A stretch of DNA of 39,807 nt from Bacillota bacterium (GTDB taxonomy: Bacteria; Bacillota; DTU030; DUMP01), in assembly GCA_012837285.1 (NCBI GenBank), contig DURJ01000120.1:1-39807 (forward strand). Reading direction: 5' to 3'. Under the pieces are notes generated by a model. The model worked only from the letters and a program-made list of their open reading frames with translations, had not been told where the DNA came from and made no database searches. Within the stretch, counting starts at the first letter, position 1; every line of letters starts with the position of its first letter. A program made the position numbers and the translations under genes. Positions 1-7,370 of the stretch are shown here, in pieces.

Positions 1-7
1 AAAAAGT

Positions 8-33
8 AATGGCGGCCGGGGAGGGCCGCCATT
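8..33. terminator. Hairpin, possible terminator
   Basis: A perfect 10-bp inverted repeat with a 6-nt loop (arms 8-17 and 24-33, GC-rich). Read on the minus strand it is followed by a short T-run; on the plus strand there is no clear T-run. It may end a minus-strand gene left of the window, or act on both strands. Confidence 0.45.
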
Positions 34-290
34 TGGGAGAGGAGAAACCGGAGAAAAGAACTCATGGGGGAGAAGTGAAACCTTACCTGACATCATTATT
101 ACCTGGAAAACCAAAAGATATACTTGACCTTGAGCTAGCAAAATATACCACATTCAAGATGACCATAGAAATAAGGGGCGAGAGGTAAAGTTGTGTACAT
201 AAAATTTCACCCTATCATGGTTGCAGTGTTTGACCGGGGTAAGATCCTGCTCATAAGGGCGATGATAGGTTCATAACGCTGAGTGTCACA

Positions 291-324
291 GACCTGCTAA
301 ATAGTGCAGGTCGTTATTTTTTTA
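291..324 (+). terminator. Rho-independent terminator
   Basis: A 7-bp perfect stem (291-297 with 306-312), an 8-nt loop, then GTTATTTTTTT. It sits just upstream of the sigma-54-like promoter and would insulate the acyl-CoA cluster from upstream transcription. Its right arm overlaps the start of the duplicated 67-nt block. Confidence 0.75.
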
Positions 325-376
325 TCTATGGGATATCATTGGCCCTAATGTTGCATGATAGGGGAAGCAAAAGCCT
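310..376 (+). repeat. 67-nt duplicated control block, copy A
   Basis: This block aligns without gaps to 2886-2952, with 56 of 67 positions identical. The best-conserved part is the end, CATGATAGGGGAAGC, where 15 bases match exactly. Each copy lies upstream of an acyl-CoA gene (crotonase here, acyl-CoA dehydrogenase for copy B). Non-coding conservation of this kind points to a shared promoter or operator. Confidence 0.85.
339..366 (+). promoter_or_regulatory. Sigma-54-type -24/-12 promoter (candidate)
   Basis: The sequence TTGGCCC-N5-TTGCA has GG at 341-342 and GC at 353-354, separated by exactly 10 bases. That is the invariant spacing of the RpoN consensus (TTGGCAC-N5-TTGCW). The predicted transcription start is near 366. 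No sigma-A -35/-10 pair fits nearby. If correct, the cluster needs a bacterial enhancer-binding activator that is not encoded in this window. Confidence 0.65.
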
Positions 377-379
377 AAT

Positions 380-545
380 TCAACCCAAGGGGGTGTGTAG
401 ATCACAAGGCAGTTAGCAAGGTGACACCAGTGGAACGGTACCTTCGCTAATGCCAGACTGCTGGAGGCCTGAAGTAGTATTGGAAGTGCTGGGATGGTTA
501 TCGGTGCGTTTACCGAACTCAGTTGGCGCAACACGAAGTAGAAGA
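380..545 (+). promoter_or_regulatory. Structured 5' leader of the crotonase gene
   Basis: The main helix pairs 408-422 with 440-454: 14 base pairs with only two single-base bulges (G412 and C445). A small CCAG-ACTG-CTGG hairpin at 453-464 shares its first bases with that helix. A third helix is 489-493 with 518-522, enclosing TCGGT/ACCGA (501-505 with 512-516). An alternative pairing GGTG (392-395) plus TCAC (402-405) with GTGACACC (421-428) competes with the main helix. The ribosome-binding site at 548-553 lies just after these structures. I do not recognise a known riboswitch family. Confidence 0.5.
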
Positions 546-560
546 TAAGGAGGAGCAAAG

Positions 561-1343
561 ATGGCTTGGGAAACATTATTGCTGGAGAAGAAGGAAAATA
601 TCGGTATCATCACCCTGAATCGGCCCGAGAAAATGAATACCATGACACCGCTATTCATCAAGGAGTACAACCAGGTATTAGATGAAGTAGCGGCCGACCG
701 AGAAATCTGGGTGGTAATCCTACGAGCCGAAGGCAAGGCCTTTTGTGCCGGAGGAGATTTTGAGCTGCTAAAGGCGCTGGATACTGCGCCCAAAGCCCGA
801 GTTACTATTAGGGAAGTTGGTCGAGCTATTGGCAAAATGTATCACATGCCTAAACCGATAATTGCTGCTGTGCAAGGGGCGGCAGCCGGTGGGGGAGCCA
901 ACTTAGCTTTGTCCTGTGACTTTGTCATTGCTTCTGACAAGGCTAGATTTGGCCAAGCCTTTGTTAATATAGGCTTAGTACCGGATACAGGCGGTATGTG
1001 GTCCTTGACCCGTGCGGTTGGTGTGATGCGAGGCAAAGAGTTGGCCATGACTGGACGCTTGATCGGGGCAGAAGAAGCGGAAAGCTATGGCATGGTACTC
1101 ATAGTAGTCCCGGCCGACAAGCTGGATGAGGAAGTAATGGCTTTCGCCCAGCAGCTAGCAGCCCAGGCCCCGATTGCCGTGGGCTACATTAAGCAAATTG
1201 CTAACCGTATTAGTGATATTACACAAGAGACCTATTCGGACCTGGAAGCGGACCTTATGGGTATCGCCCTGCAGACCAAGGACCACAAGGAAGGCCTGAC
1301 AGCATTTTTGGAGAAGAGAAAACCTGTTTTTAAGGGAGAATAA
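561..1343 (+). CDS. Crotonase-family enoyl-CoA hydratase/isomerase, PaaG-like
   Basis: A 260-residue crotonase-fold protein, full length for the family. It acts on acyl-CoA thioesters in the cytoplasm. The N-terminal strand with NRPEKMN (20-26), the oxyanion-hole region AFCAGGDF (60-67) and the GGGAN loop (110-114) are clear. The two glutamates of classical enoyl-CoA hydratase (rat E144 and E164) align with N114 and F134. Instead there is Asp142 in GLVPDTGG, as in PaaG-type isomerases. A double-bond isomerase or another crotonase activity is therefore more likely than simple hydration. The start is ATG 561 behind AGGAGG (548-553). It is the first gene of the acyl-CoA cluster and follows the sigma-54-like promoter and long leader. 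Confidence 0.85.
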   Translation: MAWETLLLEKKENIGIITLNRPEKMNTMTPLFIKEYNQVLDEVAADREIWVVILRAEGKAFCAGGDFELLKALDTAPKARVTIREVGRAIGKMYHMPKPIIAAVQGAAAGGGANLALSCDFVIASDKARFGQAFVNIGLVPDTGGMWSLTRAVGVMRGKELAMTGRLIGAEEAESYGMVLIVVPADKLDEEVMAFAQQLAAQAPIAVGYIKQIANRISDITQETYSDLEADLMGIALQTKDHKEGLTAFLEKRKPVFKGE

Positions 1344-1438: not shown

Positions 1439-2752
1439 ATGAGCTGGAAAGAAGACTATCAAAAGAAGCTAATGTCGGTGGAAGACGCAGCGGCCCAGAT
1501 CAAATCGGGAGATCGGGTTTGGCTCTCCCCAGTGTGCAGTATGCCGATTCAATTTGGTGATGCACTGGCCGCGCGGTACAAAGAATTGGAGAATGCCACT
1601 GCCATCAGCGGATTGCTAATGCACCCGTGGGGCTTCTTGAAGGGCGAGTGTAAAGGGCATATCAACTATGAAAGCTTCTTCTTAGGGCCAGTGGAACGCA
1701 AATTCCTCAAACAGGGCAATGTTAAGGTTACGTCTGTGCACTTCTCCCACATTGAGTGGTATACCATTAATCGGGTTAAGGCCAATGTGGCTGTTTTCGA
1801 TGTGACGCCACCGGATGAGTATGGCTATATGAGCTTTGGCCCTCTAGGAACTTATAATGGTGCTCTGGCGGCACAACTGGCTGACAAGGTTATCGTCCAG
1901 GTAAACAAAAAGGTACCGTATGTATACGGTGGTGCCGAGAGCTTTATCCATGTTGCGCAAGTGGATCATATTTGTGAGGCCGATCATGATATTCCAGTGC
2001 TCCCTAATCCGCCGCTTACAGACGAAGACAGAAAAATTGGCGCCTACATCGCGGAACGTGTTCCCGATGGAGCCTGCTTGCAGCTTGGTATCGGTGGTGT
2101 AGCCAACGCAGTGGGCGAACTGCTGGTAAACAAGAAAGACCTGGGAGTACACACGGAGATGTTCGTAGACTCTATGGTCACGTTAGCCAAGAAAGGCGTC
2201 ATCAACTGCTCGAAGAAGAACTTCCATCCTGGCAAAATTACTGCTGGCTTTGGGATCGGTTCCAAGGAACTGTACGATTTTATGGATAGAAACCAGCTAA
2301 TGGAAACCTTCCCTATTTGGAAGATCACGGACCCTTATATAATTGGACAGAACGATAACTTTGTGTCCATCAATAGCTGCCTGACAGTAGACATCACCGG
2401 TCAGGTGGGCTCAGAAGCGTTGGGCTTTAACCAATTTAGCGGTACTGGCGGGCAATTGGACTTTGTCCGGGGTGCAGGCTTGTCTAAGGGCGGTATGTCC
2501 TTCATAGCACTTGCGTCCACTGTGACCTTGAAGAATGGCACTACTATCAGCAAGATTGTTACTACTTTGGAACCGGGCACAGCTGTAACCACACCGAGAA
2601 CCGATGTGCAGTATATCGTAACTGAATATGGCGTGGCCGATCTAAGGGACAAGAGCATTCCTGATCGCGCCAAGGCCCTAATTGCTATATCCCACCCTGA
2701 TTTCCGCGATCAGCTACAATCTGAAGCCAAGAAGGCCGGCGTTTTGTACTAG
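1439..2752 (+). CDS. Cat/4-hydroxybutyrate-type acyl-CoA:acetate CoA-transferase
   Basis: A 437-residue protein of the acetyl-CoA hydrolase/transferase family (type I CoA-transferases such as butyryl-CoA:acetate and 4-hydroxybutyrate CoA-transferase). It moves CoA between an acyl-CoA and a carboxylate through a glutamyl-CoA thioester. The likely catalytic Glu240 lies in GVHTEMFVDS. The CoA-site loop GIGGVANAV (217-225) and the C-terminal FSGTGGQLDFVRGA motif are intact. The length is normal. The start is ATG 1439 after a weak AAGAAGGGG site. Its neighbours suggest it activates or releases a short fatty acid such as butyrate. Substrate cannot be told from sequence; acetate, propionate, butyrate or 4-hydroxybutyrate are all handled by this family. 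Confidence 0.88.
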   Translation: MSWKEDYQKKLMSVEDAAAQIKSGDRVWLSPVCSMPIQFGDALAARYKELENATAISGLLMHPWGFLKGECKGHINYESFFLGPVERKFLKQGNVKVTSVHFSHIEWYTINRVKANVAVFDVTPPDEYGYMSFGPLGTYNGALAAQLADKVIVQVNKKVPYVYGGAESFIHVAQVDHICEADHDIPVLPNPPLTDEDRKIGAYIAERVPDGACLQLGIGGVANAVGELLVNKKDLGVHTEMFVDSMVTLAKKGVINCSKKNFHPGKITAGFGIGSKELYDFMDRNQLMETFPIWKITDPYIIGQNDNFVSINSCLTVDITGQVGSEALGFNQFSGTGGQLDFVRGAGLSKGGMSFIALASTVTLKNGTTISKIVTTLEPGTAVTTPRTDVQYIVTEYGVADLRDKSIPDRAKALIAISHPDFRDQLQSEAKKAGVLY

Positions 2753-2795: not shown

Positions 2796-2869
2796 GCAGG
2801 CACTCTTCTCAAATCTCCCTTGTGAACGGACGCAGTGCCTGCAGTGATAACTCTTGACTGACGAGTCAA
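2796..2869. promoter_or_regulatory. Two inverted repeats upstream of copy B
   Basis: GCAGGCACT (2796-2804) and AGTGCCTGC (2834-2842) form a 9-bp inverted repeat spaced by 29 bases. TTGACT (2854-2859) and AGTCAA (2864-2869) form a 6-bp palindrome with a 4-base centre. They lie roughly 50-120 bases upstream of the putative -24 element of copy B, the usual distance for enhancer sites. The first could also be a poor terminator for the CoA-transferase gene, although no T-run follows. Confidence 0.4.
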
Positions 2870-2885
2870 TGGGGGGTAGATTGTT

Positions 2886-2952
2886 GTCGTTATGTTTTTG
2901 TCCATGGGATATAGTTGGTGCCAATGTTACATGATAGGGGAAGCGAGAGCCT
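2886..2952 (+). repeat. 67-nt duplicated control block, copy B
   Basis: The second copy of the block at 310-376, 56 of 67 positions identical with no gaps. It lies 46 bases upstream of the acyl-CoA dehydrogenase start. The surrounding sequence is not obviously similar to that of copy A, so similarity is confined to the block. Confidence 0.85.
2915..2942 (+). promoter_or_regulatory. Sigma-54-like promoter, degenerate -12
   Basis: TTGGTGC-N5-TTACA keeps GG at 2917-2918, but the -12 dinucleotide is AC (2929-2930) rather than GC, at the correct 10-base spacing. The predicted start is near 2942, giving a leader of about 56 nt to the acyl-CoA dehydrogenase. The change at -12 should weaken it relative to copy A, or the block may be bound by something else. 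Confidence 0.45.
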
Positions 2953-2997: not shown

Positions 2998-4143
2998 ATG
3001 GACTTTCGGTTAACTGAGGATCTGGAACTGTGGCGCAAGACAGTACGCGAGTTTACCGAGAACGAAGTGGCACCACATGACGAGGCAATGGACAGAGCCA
3101 ATGACTTATCTTGGGACATTATTGCTAAGATGAGGGATGCTGGCATGTTTGGCATACCTTATCCGGAAGAATATGGGGGATCTAATATGGGATCCTTGGC
3201 CGGGGCTATTACTACAGAGGAATTAGCCCGTGGATCAGCCAGTGTTGCCCTGACCTTGGATGCTCATTGGCTGGCTACCGATCCCATTTACCTTTTTGGC
3301 ACTGAGGAGCAAAAAAGGAAGTATTTGCCTGACCTAGTTTCCGGCAAGAAGTTGGCGGCCTTTGCTCTCACCGAACCTGTAGCGGGATCCGATGCCGCTG
3401 GTATTGTTAGCACCGCGGTTCGTGACGGCGATCACTGGGTTCTAAATGGTACCAAGGCTTGGATCACCAACGGTGGCGCAGCTGAGGTGTATCTGATAGC
3501 CGTCAAGACGGACAAGACAACAGGGGCCCGGGGTATTTCTACGTTTATTGTGGAAAAAGGCACACCCGGCTTTAGCATCGGCAAAAAAGAAGACAAGATG
3601 GGTTGCCGTGGGTCAGTAACCACCGAGCTGATCATGGATAACTGCCGGATTCCGGCCGCTAATCTCCTGGGGAAAGAAGGAGAAGGCTTTAAGATAGCTA
3701 TGATGACCCTGGACTTTGGCCGTGCTTGTGTTGGAGCCATGGGTGTGGGTACAGCTGAGTCGGTTATGGAAAAGGCGGCTCGCTATGCCAATCAGCGCCA
3801 GGCCTTCGGCGGTCCGTTGGGCAAGCTGCAGGCCATTCAGTTTAAGATTGCCGACATGGCCATGGGTATCGCAGCAGCTAGGTTCATGGTATACCATGCT
3901 GTCTGGAAGCGGGACCAGGGTATGCGCTTTTCCCAAGAAGCAGCTATGGCCAAAGTGTTTGCGGCCGAGGTGGCCATGAGCGCTTGCCGAGAAGCTATCC
4001 AGATTTTCGGCGGGAATGGCTATTCACGCGATTATCCAGTGGAGCGTGCTCTGCGTGATGCTAAGCTTTTGGAAATCGGTGAGGGTGCTTCCGAGGTACT
4101 CCGCATGGTTATCGGTATGACAACACTTAAACAGTATGCGTAA
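2998..4143 (+). CDS. Acyl-CoA dehydrogenase, short-chain (butyryl-CoA type)
   Basis: A 381-residue FAD-dependent acyl-CoA dehydrogenase that introduces a 2,3-double bond into an acyl-CoA, or in fermenters reduces crotonyl-CoA, passing electrons to EtfAB. The family signature FALTEPVAGSD (122-132), the WITNGG flavin/substrate segment (155-160), the QIFGGNGY motif (335-342) and the catalytic Glu362 in GEGASE are present. Length is typical. ATG 2998 was chosen because GGAAAGGAG lies 8 bases upstream; a GTG at 2989 would overlap that site. The etfB and etfA genes follow directly, giving the standard dehydrogenase-ETF set. Substrate chain length is inferred from context only. Confidence 0.92.
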   Translation: MDFRLTEDLELWRKTVREFTENEVAPHDEAMDRANDLSWDIIAKMRDAGMFGIPYPEEYGGSNMGSLAGAITTEELARGSASVALTLDAHWLATDPIYLFGTEEQKRKYLPDLVSGKKLAAFALTEPVAGSDAAGIVSTAVRDGDHWVLNGTKAWITNGGAAEVYLIAVKTDKTTGARGISTFIVEKGTPGFSIGKKEDKMGCRGSVTTELIMDNCRIPAANLLGKEGEGFKIAMMTLDFGRACVGAMGVGTAESVMEKAARYANQRQAFGGPLGKLQAIQFKIADMAMGIAAARFMVYHAVWKRDQGMRFSQEAAMAKVFAAEVAMSACREAIQIFGGNGYSRDYPVERALRDAKLLEIGEGASEVLRMVIGMTTLKQYA

Positions 4144-4158
4144 TGTGGGGGGACGGGT

Positions 4159-4944
4159 TTGCACATCGTAGTATGCATCAAGCAGGTGCCCAAGACGCTA
4201 GACGTATGCGTCGATCCAGTTACCCATAACCTGATTCGCCAAGGTATGGAAAGTGTTATCAATATGTTCGATGAAAATGCCCTGGAAGAGGCTTTGTTGT
4301 TACGAGAAAAGTTTGGCGGCAAAGTCAGTGTGATTAGCATGGGGCCTCCACAAGTGCAAGAAGCGCTGCGAAAGGCAGTGGCCATGGGTGCCGACGAAGC
4401 CTACCTGCTGTGTGACCGCGCTTTGGGTGGAGCCGATGTGCTGGCTACAGCCTATACTCTGGCTCAGGGAATCAAAAAGCTACAGCCGGTGGATCTGATT
4501 CTGTGCGGACGCCATGCTGTGGATGCCGATACCGGTCAAGTGGGGCCGGAGCTGGCCGAACGGCTCGGGTGGTCCCAGGTAACACTGGTCAAACGCTTGG
4601 AGCCTGATGGTACCAAGATCACCGCCTGGAGAGAATGCGAACAAGGAACAGCTGTTTGGGAACTACCGCTACCGGCAGTAGTCACCGTAGGCAAAGAGAT
4701 TAACAAGCCCAGATACCCAACACCGATTGGTATTATTCGGTCCGGCAAGAAACCCATTACTGTCTGGCATGCCAAGGACCTAGATGTAGATGAAAGCAAA
4801 ATTGGGTTAGCCGGTTCCCCCACCAGGGTAACACGCCTGTTTTCTCCCGAAAGAGTTTCCCGGGTGGAAATGCTTACTGGTAAGGCCGAAGAAGTAGCAC
4901 GGCTGCTCGTGGCCAAACTAGAAGAGCACAAAATCCAGCTGTAG
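4159..4944 (+). CDS. etfB: Electron transfer flavoprotein beta subunit
   Basis: A 261-residue ETF beta subunit, the AMP- or FAD-binding partner of EtfA that carries electrons to or from the acyl-CoA dehydrogenase encoded just upstream. It begins with the family pattern IVVCIKQVP and contains the nucleotide-loop region LILCGRHAVDADTGQVGPE (112-130). The start is TTG 4159 behind GGGGGGACGGG; no ATG or GTG fits better. It lies 15 bases after the dehydrogenase gene, so the two are cotranscribed. Whether this ETF bifurcates electrons (using NADH and ferredoxin) cannot be settled by eye. Confidence 0.93.
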   Translation: MHIVVCIKQVPKTLDVCVDPVTHNLIRQGMESVINMFDENALEEALLLREKFGGKVSVISMGPPQVQEALRKAVAMGADEAYLLCDRALGGADVLATAYTLAQGIKKLQPVDLILCGRHAVDADTGQVGPELAERLGWSQVTLVKRLEPDGTKITAWRECEQGTAVWELPLPAVVTVGKEINKPRYPTPIGIIRSGKKPITVWHAKDLDVDESKIGLAGSPTRVTRLFSPERVSRVEMLTGKAEEVARLLVAKLEEHKIQL

Positions 4945-4957
4945 GGAGGATAGATCC

Positions 4958-5977
4958 ATGCATGATGACATTTGGGTTGTTACTGAACTGGTGGGCAAAG
5001 GCTTAGCCTCTGTTAGTCTTCAGCTACTGGGGAAAGCTCGTCAGCTGGCAGACCAAGCCGATGGCAAGGTGATGGCAGTTGCTATGGGGCATCAAATAAT
5101 GCCCCTGGCCCAAGAAATAGTAGAGCATGGGGCCGATGAGGTGTTGGTTGCCGATCACCCGGAATTAGCCTATTATCGGACGTTGCCTTACGCCCGGGTG
5201 CTAACAGAGTTGGTCCAGGAGAGAAAACCAAACGTAGTATTGCTGGGGGCTACCAGCCAGGGCCGAGACCTGGCCCCCAGAGTCGCCGCGCGGTTACAAA
5301 CAGGGCTCACAGCCGATTGCCTGGAGTTGCATATTGACGACCAGGGACTCTTGGTACAAACTAAGCCTTCTTATGGTGACAATGTAATGGTGGATATTGT
5401 TATTCCCGACCACAGACCACAAATGGCTACTGTGCGGCCCAATGTGTTCCCTTTGCCAAAGAGAATGGCTGATCGCCAAGGGAAAGTCAGCTCGGTGACG
5501 GTGACTCTACAGCCTGACGATCTCAGAACAGTGGTGAAGGACATCATGGCCGAAGAGCAAGAAGCATTCAGGTTAGAGGAAGCCGATGTGGTAATCTGCG
5601 GCGGTCGGGGCATGGGTTCCAAGGAGAATTTCGAACAACTCTATGCCTTGGCTCAGGCTTTCGGCGGAGTTGTGGGGGCCACCCGACCGCCGGCAGATGA
5701 AGGCTGGATTAACCCGGCTTTCCAAATCGGCCAAAGCGGCAAGATGGTAGCGCCGAAGCTGTTCATTGCCTGTGGCGTGTCAGGCGCCGTCCAGTTTACG
5801 GTGGGTATGGAGAAATCCAAAATTGTAGTAGCAATCAATAAGGATGCTGCGGCCCCGATTTTCGATTTTGCCACCTATGGCATTGTCGGTGACACTCGGG
5901 AGATTATCCCGGCTCTGTTACAGGAGCTCACTACAATCCAGGAAGGCAAAACCAGAAGCAGAAAGGAGAGCAATTAA
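4958..5977 (+). CDS. etfA: Electron transfer flavoprotein alpha subunit
   Basis: A 339-residue ETF alpha subunit that forms the FAD-carrying heterodimer with EtfB. The C-terminal FAD domain is clear: GGRGMGSKENF (210-220), GATRPPADEGW, QIGQSGKMVAPKLFIACG and the SGAVQFTVGM loop. No N-terminal ferredoxin extension is present, unlike some EtfA proteins of bifurcating caffeyl-CoA reductase complexes. ATG 4958 follows GGGAGGA. It is 13 bases after etfB, and the ctfA-type gene begins 2 bases after its stop. Confidence 0.94.
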   Translation: MHDDIWVVTELVGKGLASVSLQLLGKARQLADQADGKVMAVAMGHQIMPLAQEIVEHGADEVLVADHPELAYYRTLPYARVLTELVQERKPNVVLLGATSQGRDLAPRVAARLQTGLTADCLELHIDDQGLLVQTKPSYGDNVMVDIVIPDHRPQMATVRPNVFPLPKRMADRQGKVSSVTVTLQPDDLRTVVKDIMAEEQEAFRLEEADVVICGGRGMGSKENFEQLYALAQAFGGVVGATRPPADEGWINPAFQIGQSGKMVAPKLFIACGVSGAVQFTVGMEKSKIVVAINKDAAAPIFDFATYGIVGDTREIIPALLQELTTIQEGKTRSRKESN

Positions 5978-5978
5978 A

Positions 5979-6695
5979 GTGAAGTCTAAGGAAAAAGCTT
6001 TGGATGCAGCTTTGGATTACGTTAAGGATGGTATGACCATCATGATCGGGGGATTTCTCGGACAAAACGCACCGCTGGCCTGTATTGACAAGTTAGTGGA
6101 ACGTGGGGTAAAGGATCTGACCTTGATTACAGCTGTGAATGCTTATGTGGGGGGTGGCTTTGGTATCGGCAAGCTAATCGAAAACAAACAAATCAAGAAA
6201 TACATTGGCTCCCACATTGGCACTTGCCCGGCAGCAGTAGAGCTGTATAAGAAAGGAGAGCTGGAAGTTGATTATTATCCCCAAGGCACAGTGATAGAAA
6301 AAATCAGGGCTGGCGGCGCCGGACTCGGTGGAGTCCTGACTCCCGTTGGTGTAGGCACACTGATGGAGCAAGGCAAGCAGAAACTGGTAATAGATAACCG
6401 GGAGTACTTGGTGGAGACAGCTCTTAAAGCCAACGTTGGAATCATAAGAGGATACAAGGCGGATAAGATCGGCAATATCCTCTACCGTGGTACGTACAAC
6501 TCTAATCCAGTTATGGCTCTGGCGGCTGATTACGTTATTGCTGAGGTAGATTATGTAGTGGAGCCGGGAGAGATCGAACCGGATCGGGTTGGAACCCCAG
6601 GTATTTTAGTCGATGCAGTGGTCCTCGGCTACGGTGAGGAAAAGACACAGGAAATTTTCAAGAACCTCTGGATTCGAGACAAGAAACTGGCATAA
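5979..6695 (+). CDS. CoA-transferase subunit A (acetoacetate/butyrate type)
   Basis: A 238-residue alpha subunit of a two-subunit (SCOT/AtoD/CtfA family) CoA-transferase. Motifs are the MIGGFLGQNAP loop near residue 22, the AGGAGLGGVLTP segment and the YRGTYNSNPVMALAADY region. Together with the next gene it would swap CoA between acetate, butyrate or acetoacetate and their CoA esters. GTG 5979 is chosen because GAAAGGAG sits at the right distance and it is 2 bases after the etfA stop. A longer reading upstream would overlap etfA and is not supported. It is unusual to see this in the same cluster as a Cat-type transferase. Confidence 0.88.
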   Translation: MKSKEKALDAALDYVKDGMTIMIGGFLGQNAPLACIDKLVERGVKDLTLITAVNAYVGGGFGIGKLIENKQIKKYIGSHIGTCPAAVELYKKGELEVDYYPQGTVIEKIRAGGAGLGGVLTPVGVGTLMEQGKQKLVIDNREYLVETALKANVGIIRGYKADKIGNILYRGTYNSNPVMALAADYVIAEVDYVVEPGEIEPDRVGTPGILVDAVVLGYGEEKTQEIFKNLWIRDKKLA

Positions 6696-6707
6696 AGGAG
6701 GAGGCAA

Positions 6708-7370
6708 ATGAATCCGCGGGAACTAATTGCACGTCGGGCAGCCCAAGAGTTTAAGGACGGTTTTGTTGTGAACTTGGGCTTTGGCATCCCTGTTCTAGCT
6801 GCTTCTTATATTCCCGAAGGGGTAGAGGTAATTCTGCAAGCAGAAAACGGGATTTTTGAGTTTGAGTCTGTGTCCAAAGTAGGGGAGCAGGATGCCTATG
6901 TTGCTGATGCGGCTTGTCAGCCTACTAGAATACTCCCCGGTGGTAGTACAGTGGATCTGGCCATGTCGTTTGCCGTGATTCGGGGCGGCCATGTAGATGC
7001 CACAATCCTGGGGGCACTTGAAGTCGACCAAGAGGGCAACATTGCCAACTGGGCTTTGCCGGCAGGGCCGGGGAAATGGATTCCAGGCATGGGTGGTGCT
7101 ATGGACTTGTTGGTAGGGGCTAAAAAAGTTATTTGTACACTGCAGCATACCGACAAGAAAGGCAATTCTAAGATCTCAAAAAAGTGTAAATTACCGCTGT
7201 CAGCAGCCAAAGTTGTGGATCTGATTATTACCGAGTTAGCTGCGCTGGAAATTACCCCAGACGGGTTGGTTTTGAAAGAAGTAGCCCCGGCTGTTACCGT
7301 GGAACAAGTGCGGGCTGCCACTGAAGCCGATCTTATTGTTCCGGCTTCAGTGCCGGAGATGGTACTCTAA
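6708..7370 (+). CDS. CoA-transferase subunit B (acetoacetate/butyrate type)
   Basis: A 220-residue beta subunit of the SCOT/AtoA/CtfB family. The catalytic glutamate is in QAENGIF, equivalent to the SENG motif of this family. NLGFGIPVLAA at residues 22-32 and the GKWIPGMGGAMDLL segment are typical. ATG 6708 follows AAAGGAGGAGG, 12 bases after subunit A. It is the last gene of the acyl-CoA cluster and is followed by a clear terminator. Substrate preference is not evident from sequence. Confidence 0.9.
   Translation: MNPRELIARRAAQEFKDGFVVNLGFGIPVLAASYIPEGVEVILQAENGIFEFESVSKVGEQDAYVADAACQPTRILPGGSTVDLAMSFAVIRGGHVDATILGALEVDQEGNIANWALPAGPGKWIPGMGGAMDLLVGAKKVICTLQHTDKKGNSKISKKCKLPLSAAKVVDLIITELAALEITPDGLVLKEVAPAVTVEQVRAATEADLIVPASVPEMVL

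Follow-up and report, generated by a model that had tools for sequence, protein, structure and literature searches.

The window, by which we mean the whole analysed stretch of 39,807 nucleotides (contig DURJ01000120.1 of a Bacillota bacterium), carries near its left end an operon whose genes encode a crotonase, an acetyl-CoA hydrolase/CoA-transferase family protein, an acyl-CoA dehydrogenase (ACDH) of the butyryl-CoA type, EtfB and EtfA and both subunits of a CoA-transferase (Table 1). The non-coding DNA upstream of the crotonase and of the ACDH contains two copies, A and B, of a 67-nt block. The genome to which the window belongs (G000) comprises 2.17 Mb in 204 contigs and is ~95% complete. 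EtfB and EtfA of the window are closer to those of G004, a member of another genus (EtfB 95% identical at the protein level), than to those of G002 from the same genus (86%); for the ACDH, in contrast, G002 is at least as close as G004. G004 has the crotonase and the CoA hydrolase (92-93%), neither of which was seen at the G002 locus, and the G002 genome lacks the hydrolase. This mosaic relatedness at window positions 3001-6000 suggests recombination or lateral transfer.

Table 1. Positions of the genes, promoters and other elements at the operon (window coordinates)
Feature	Position	Strand	Evidence
gpr-EBP intergenic DNA, left edge of the missing segment	1..146	.	matches to G002/G004, C50 overlap
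Junction segment in place of EBP gene and TGTGCA-N4-TGCACA sites	147..281	.	no EBP or relative match
Intrinsic terminator, 7-bp stem, 8-nt loop, T tract	291..323	+	z -4.6; overlaps 5' end of copy A
Copy A of the 67-nt block	310..376	+	repeat search, genome BLAST
Sigma-54 promoter A, TTGGCCC-N5-TTGCA, predicted start ~366	339..355	+	1 deviation (A to C) from the relatives' TGGCA/TTGCA invariant
Relic of ACDH gene 3' end, frameshifted, non-coding, between copy A and crotonase	406..531	+	blastn and local alignment to G004 ACDH
Enoyl-CoA hydratase/crotonase	561..1343	+	Pfam ECH_1 3.6e-67; 91.5% identical in G004; dN 0.046, dS 1.3
Acetyl-CoA hydrolase/CoA-transferase family protein	1439..2752	+	Pfam AcetylCoA_hyd_C 6.5e-59
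Sigma-70-like promoter candidate TTGACT-N17-TAGATT, just before copy B	2854..2882	+	9/12 matches; 4.5 expected by chance in 4.2 kb
Copy B of the 67-nt block	2886..2952	+	repeat search, genome BLAST
Degenerate sigma-54 promoter B, TTGGTGC-N5-TTACA	2915..2931	+	3 deviations, -12 GC lost; G004 ortholog site canonical TTGGCAC-N5-TTGCA
Acyl-CoA (butyryl-CoA-type) dehydrogenase	2998..4143	+	Pfam Acyl-CoA_dh domains; orthologs 79-91% identical in five family members; dN/dS ~0.03 vs G002
etfB and etfA	4159..5977	+	Pfam ETF, ETF_alpha
CoA-transferase subunits A and B	5979..7370	+	Pfam CoA_trans

Both copies of the block are non-coding and align without gaps with 56 of 67 positions identical (84%), as had been noted in a sequence-only reading of this DNA. 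They form the sole direct-repeat family of note within the window. A BLAST search of the whole genome with copy A, a search which that reading had proposed, returned these two places only (E 2.7e-29 and 2.2e-14). With only two copies in the genome, a mobile element was rejected as identity of the block, and a structured RNA or riboswitch was rejected since no Rfam family reached the gathering threshold anywhere in the window; the region of copy B folded no better than its shuffles. The core of copy A, TTGGCCC-TAATG-TTGCA, differs by one mismatch from TTGGCAY-N5-TTGCW and indeed has GG and GC exactly 10 bases apart, as read before. In copy B the corresponding sequence is TTGGTGC-CAATG-TTACA; here GG is kept and the GC of the -12 element is lost (AC instead), which had gone unmentioned.

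The block had been taken for a sigma-54 promoter, and the presence of rpoN in the genome and the conservation of the motif in related genomes had been named as checks. An intact rpoN was found on contig C73 (open frame of 473 aa, intact DNA-binding domain, Sigma54_DBD 3.9e-59), together with five genes in G000 that encode enhancer-binding proteins (EBPs) with full AAA+ domains. Loose sigma-54-like matches are common by chance; the genome has 11 matches to the strict pattern TTGGCNY-N5-TTGCW vs one to the reversed control, and 2 of the 11 sites adjoin EBP genes (C8 and C32). Consensus sites elsewhere in G000 lie at C133:17995-18011 (L187), C8:26018-26034 (L178) and C32:17247-17263 (L182) and, two of them adjoining EBP genes, probably represent intact sigma-54 regulons. 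The ACDH/crotonase operons of five relatives (G002-G006) are preceded by six sites, namely GTTGGCATTAATGTTGCA in G002, CGTGGCATAAGAGTTGCA in G003, GTTGGCACCAATGTTGCA (B) and ATTGGCATAAATATTGCA (A, before the crotonase) in G004, TTTGGCATGAAAGTTGCA in G005 and CCTGGCAAGCTTTTTGCA in G006. TGGCA-N7-TTGCA is invariant in all six, with variable spacer and flanks, and GG-N10-GC is found in each of them as well as in copy A. With relatives at a greater distance, the alignment is limited to the terminator, TGGCA and TTGCA, which lie at the same place and have an EBP gene adjacent. From rpoN, the conserved motif and the adjacent EBP in relatives, we conclude with high confidence that the block is a sigma-54 promoter; copy B is one by descent, not by sequence. 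G005 has one paralogue that follows an acetyl-CoA hydrolase gene and lacks a promoter of this type; on C149 (L133) this genome carries a second CoA hydrolase-ACDH-EtfB cluster with no sigma-54 promoter before the ACDH, the sigma-54-driven cluster being on C77. Searches of relatives beyond the family at the DNA level gave only chance-like matches of 17-40 nt, and a protein scan of genome contigs gave only distant dehydrogenases (<=57% identical), which are uninformative for the promoter.

Downstream of the promoter, CATGATAGGGGAAGC is common to copies A and B, and a second factor had been proposed to bind there. The shared sequence is real, but it is not conserved outside the A/B pair: the copy of the closest relative matches CATGATA only, the other relatives have none of it, and AGGGGAAGC is absent from the B site of G004 and from the other relatives' sites. 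A second factor is therefore unsupported; the likeness of A and B beyond -24/-12, including CATGATAGGGGAAGC, is explained by the recent common descent of the copies.

The origin of the two copies can be traced in the DNA between copy A and the crotonase, which aligns, with frameshifts, with the last ~150 bases of the ACDH gene up to its stop codon. The local score with the ACDH of G004 was 92.5, and the highest among 500 dinucleotide shuffles was 50; with the window's own ACDH it was 39.5, i.e. the relic is more distant from this gene than from that of G004. Since an ACDH relic follows copy A, this block was once the promoter for a further ACDH gene, now lost except for its 3' relic. Further, copy A is closer to copy B and to the B site of G004 than to the A site before the G004 crotonase, a likeness consistent with a [promoter B-ACDH] unit having been duplicated in tandem before a deletion occurred. 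An ACDH relic in the leader of G004 was rejected, as the match to G004's own ACDH was not significant.

A search for sigma-54 activators near the beta-oxidation genes succeeded in the relatives and found none at the window's locus. In G002 the gene directly upstream of the promoter encodes a PAS-Sigma54_activat-HTH_8 protein of ~476 aa that contains GAFTGA, and orthologs of this EBP (74-81%) occupy the same position in G003, G004 and G006; that of G005 comes after gpr and is truncated, as the contig ends within it. The gene order in the relatives is fakA, gpr (reverse), EBP, palindromes, terminator, sigma-54 site and operon, with rsmD and coaD after the operon in G005 and G006. The palindromes, TGTGCA-N4-TGCACA with 0-2 mismatches, lie between EBP gene and terminator in G002 (TGTGCAAATTTGCACA, CGTGCATAAATGCACA, TGTGCAAAATTGCAAG), G003 (TGTGCAAATATGCACA, TATGCAAGAATGCACA), G004 (TGTGCGGAAATGCATA) and G006 (TGTGCAGAACTGCATA, TATGCAAAAATGCACA), and are candidate enhancers to which the EBP presumably binds. 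A hairpin precedes the sigma-54 site in all sequences of the relatives except the incomplete B site of G004 (z -2.9 to -5.3); the hairpins of G002, G003, G004, G005 and G006 lie at the same place as the window's terminator, whose counterpart in relatives ends the EBP transcript. Outside the family this EBP was not found in 300 relatives' genomes searched.

In the window's genome an EBP gene adjacent to the target operon, as present in G002, G003, G004 and G006, was not found, nor were upstream activator sequences 100-250 bp before the promoter. Window positions 1-146 are 89% identical to G002 DNA that ends ~12 bp before the EBP start codon, the corresponding DNA of G004, directly before the EBP gene, is 87% identical to positions 1-154, and positions 282-323 match the terminator after the EBP gene of G004. 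The 135 bases of the junction segment in between matched nothing in any relatives' locus compared, and a coding relic of the EBP was rejected there, as no match to the EBP gene rose above shuffles. TGTGCA-N(3-5)-TGCACA with up to 3 mismatches does not occur in window 1-340 or 2753-2915. Because the flanks match on both sides, the middle matches no EBP and the palindromes are absent, the EBP gene and its presumed sites are missing at this locus. Elsewhere in the G000 assembly no fragment of the EBP was found; the best match to the relatives' EBP is 37% identical, and the five remaining EBPs are mostly 34-37% identical to it over the length, with higher values only where the AAA+ core alone aligns. 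The genes fakA and gpr are located on contig C50, the last 127 bases of which are identical to window 1-127. Exact overlaps of this kind usually point to a branching assembly graph, so that a strain with the EBP may co-exist with this one.

The left end of the window holds a further element. On the - strand, positions 1-110 are a strongly conserved non-coding element next to gpr (93% across genera over ~80 nt), which was also seen at the end of C50 and at L115:4866-4958, L172:1207-1299 and L171:3986-4075. The + strand gave a full-model match to the Rfam family RF00516 'ylbH leader' with 22-31 bits vs a gathering threshold of 50, and AGAGGAGAAACCGGAG is found exactly within this match. The real product of the RF00516 family is the sporulation sRNA CsfG from the reverse strand (PMC3574147). 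In the window the - strand is rich in C and has a terminator at its end (33-8). As in Bacillus, rsmD(ylbH)-coaD-ylbJ are located downstream, here separated from the element by the acyl-CoA operon; the element is thus a candidate for CsfG.

At the positions invariant in the relatives' TGGCA and TTGCA, copy A deviates once (GGCC) and copy B three times (GGTG, TTACA), so that 4 of 20 cells deviate in the window vs 0 of 60 in the relatives (Fisher p 0.003, relatedness ignored). Sigma-54 promoters are silent without an activator, and loss of the EBP should therefore shut the genes off. The enzyme genes are intact and under purifying selection (dN 0.03-0.06, dS >1) and, therefore, must be expressed somehow. 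A replacement promoter might lie in the sigma-70-like sequence that immediately precedes copy B, though this candidate is weak. No good sigma-70 promoter was predicted in the stretch from the terminator to the crotonase, and promoter A may therefore still be used with another EBP.

The sequence-only reading had proposed that the cluster is switched by an RpoN-dependent activator. With the cognate EBP and the palindromes gone and the -12 element of copy B broken, this is unsupported in the window's genome; the proposal fits the ancestor and the relatives and probably does not hold for G000. We consider the locus likely to be an ancestral sigma-54/EBP regulon of the butyrate type that is decaying in G000 after activator loss. 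In the ancestor, a PAS-AAA+-Fis HTH EBP encoded just upstream would have bound TGTGCA-N4-TGCACA ~100-230 bp upstream and driven a butyryl-CoA-type operon of crotonase, CoA-transferase, ACDH, EtfBA and CoA-transferase AB. The window's lineage would then have duplicated the promoter together with an ACDH gene and lost the first ACDH, of which the 3' relic is left, so that promoter A came to stand before the crotonase. A deletion would have removed the activator gene together with its enhancer sites, and the promoters, left without their cognate activator, would be losing -24/-12, B being broken and A showing slight wear. Transcription of the intact enzyme genes would presumably start at other promoters, or at A used at a low level through a foreign EBP. 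More tentatively, and this may well go too far, the operon could have left sigma-54 control: EBP and enhancers deleted, rpoN and other EBPs kept, the two stranded promoters eroding independently and newly arisen sigma-70 promoters in use.

Against decay speaks that copy A keeps GG, GC and their exact spacing and may be used via another EBP. That copy A, and perhaps B, works in G000 through one of the five remaining EBPs, either enhancer-free or from undetected sites, would agree with the retention of rpoN and these EBPs, with the other consensus sites that adjoin EBP genes (C8, C32) and with the single deviation in copy A, but we regard it as unlikely given the low identity of most of these EBPs to the cognate one, of which at least two have adjacent sigma-54 sites of their own, the loss of the palindromes and the missing -12 GC of copy B. 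Less probable still is an EBP absent from the assembly only, with a strain mixture or collapsed contig hiding an intact gene and regulation as in the relatives: the number of contigs, the completeness and the exact overlap with C50 would allow for this, but a single contig spans the junction and its two flanks derive from one ancestral locus, the assembly holds no EBP fragment and promoter B itself is degraded. A mobile repeat or a site of another protein with a chance likeness to sigma-54 promoters, to which the A/B conservation beyond -24/-12 and the frequency of loose matches might point, is very improbable in view of the two copies only, the strict-pattern excess over the control and the distant relatives that keep just terminator, TGGCA and TTGCA next to an EBP gene.

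The decaying regulon is of a known kind, that is, sigma-54/EBP control of crt-bcd-etf operons in Clostridiales (PMC6615313). CrbR, XcgR and YctR define sigma-54 regulons of crt-hbd-thl-bcd-etfAB operons in Clostridiales, with the sigma-54 motif TTGGCATNNNNNTTGCT and upstream sites 100-250 bp away, the class of activator site in the CrbR and XcgR groups being TGT-N10-12-ACA (Nie et al. 2019, PMC6615313). The relatives share with these a sigma-54 promoter, an adjacent EBP with a Fis-type HTH, several upstream sites and a crotonase/bcd/etf target, and their TGTGCA-N4-TGCACA fits TGT-N10-12-ACA, a likeness in site class. Unlike the known regulons, the relatives' EBP was found only in its own family (300 genomes searched) and the gene order differs, and the window has neither the EBP nor its sites. 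In a literature search on activator loss at sigma-54 promoters, the nearest precedent was class II pilE of Neisseria meningitidis, where a conserved -24/-12 persists after sigma-54 control was lost; rpoN is not needed for expression and is itself defective (PMC6755734). Here, too, -24/-12 outlives its control, but with an intact rpoN; the loss concerns the specific activator and its enhancer sites. This retention of rpoN with loss of the specific activator and its enhancers, next to intact and duplicated states in sister genera, is new.

In sum, the locus illustrates how purifying selection on an operon can persist through activator loss. By comparison with the intact versions in sister genera, one may ask whether a new promoter arose before the activator was lost or only afterwards. 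A further lesson is that a good -24/-12 match alone is no proof of RpoN control. In addition, an EBP specific to the family is defined, for which the binding site and the target are clearly predicted. If the operon has indeed left sigma-54 control, the family would offer a natural series of intact, duplicated and orphaned states in which an all-or-none, enhancer-dependent switch is being replaced.
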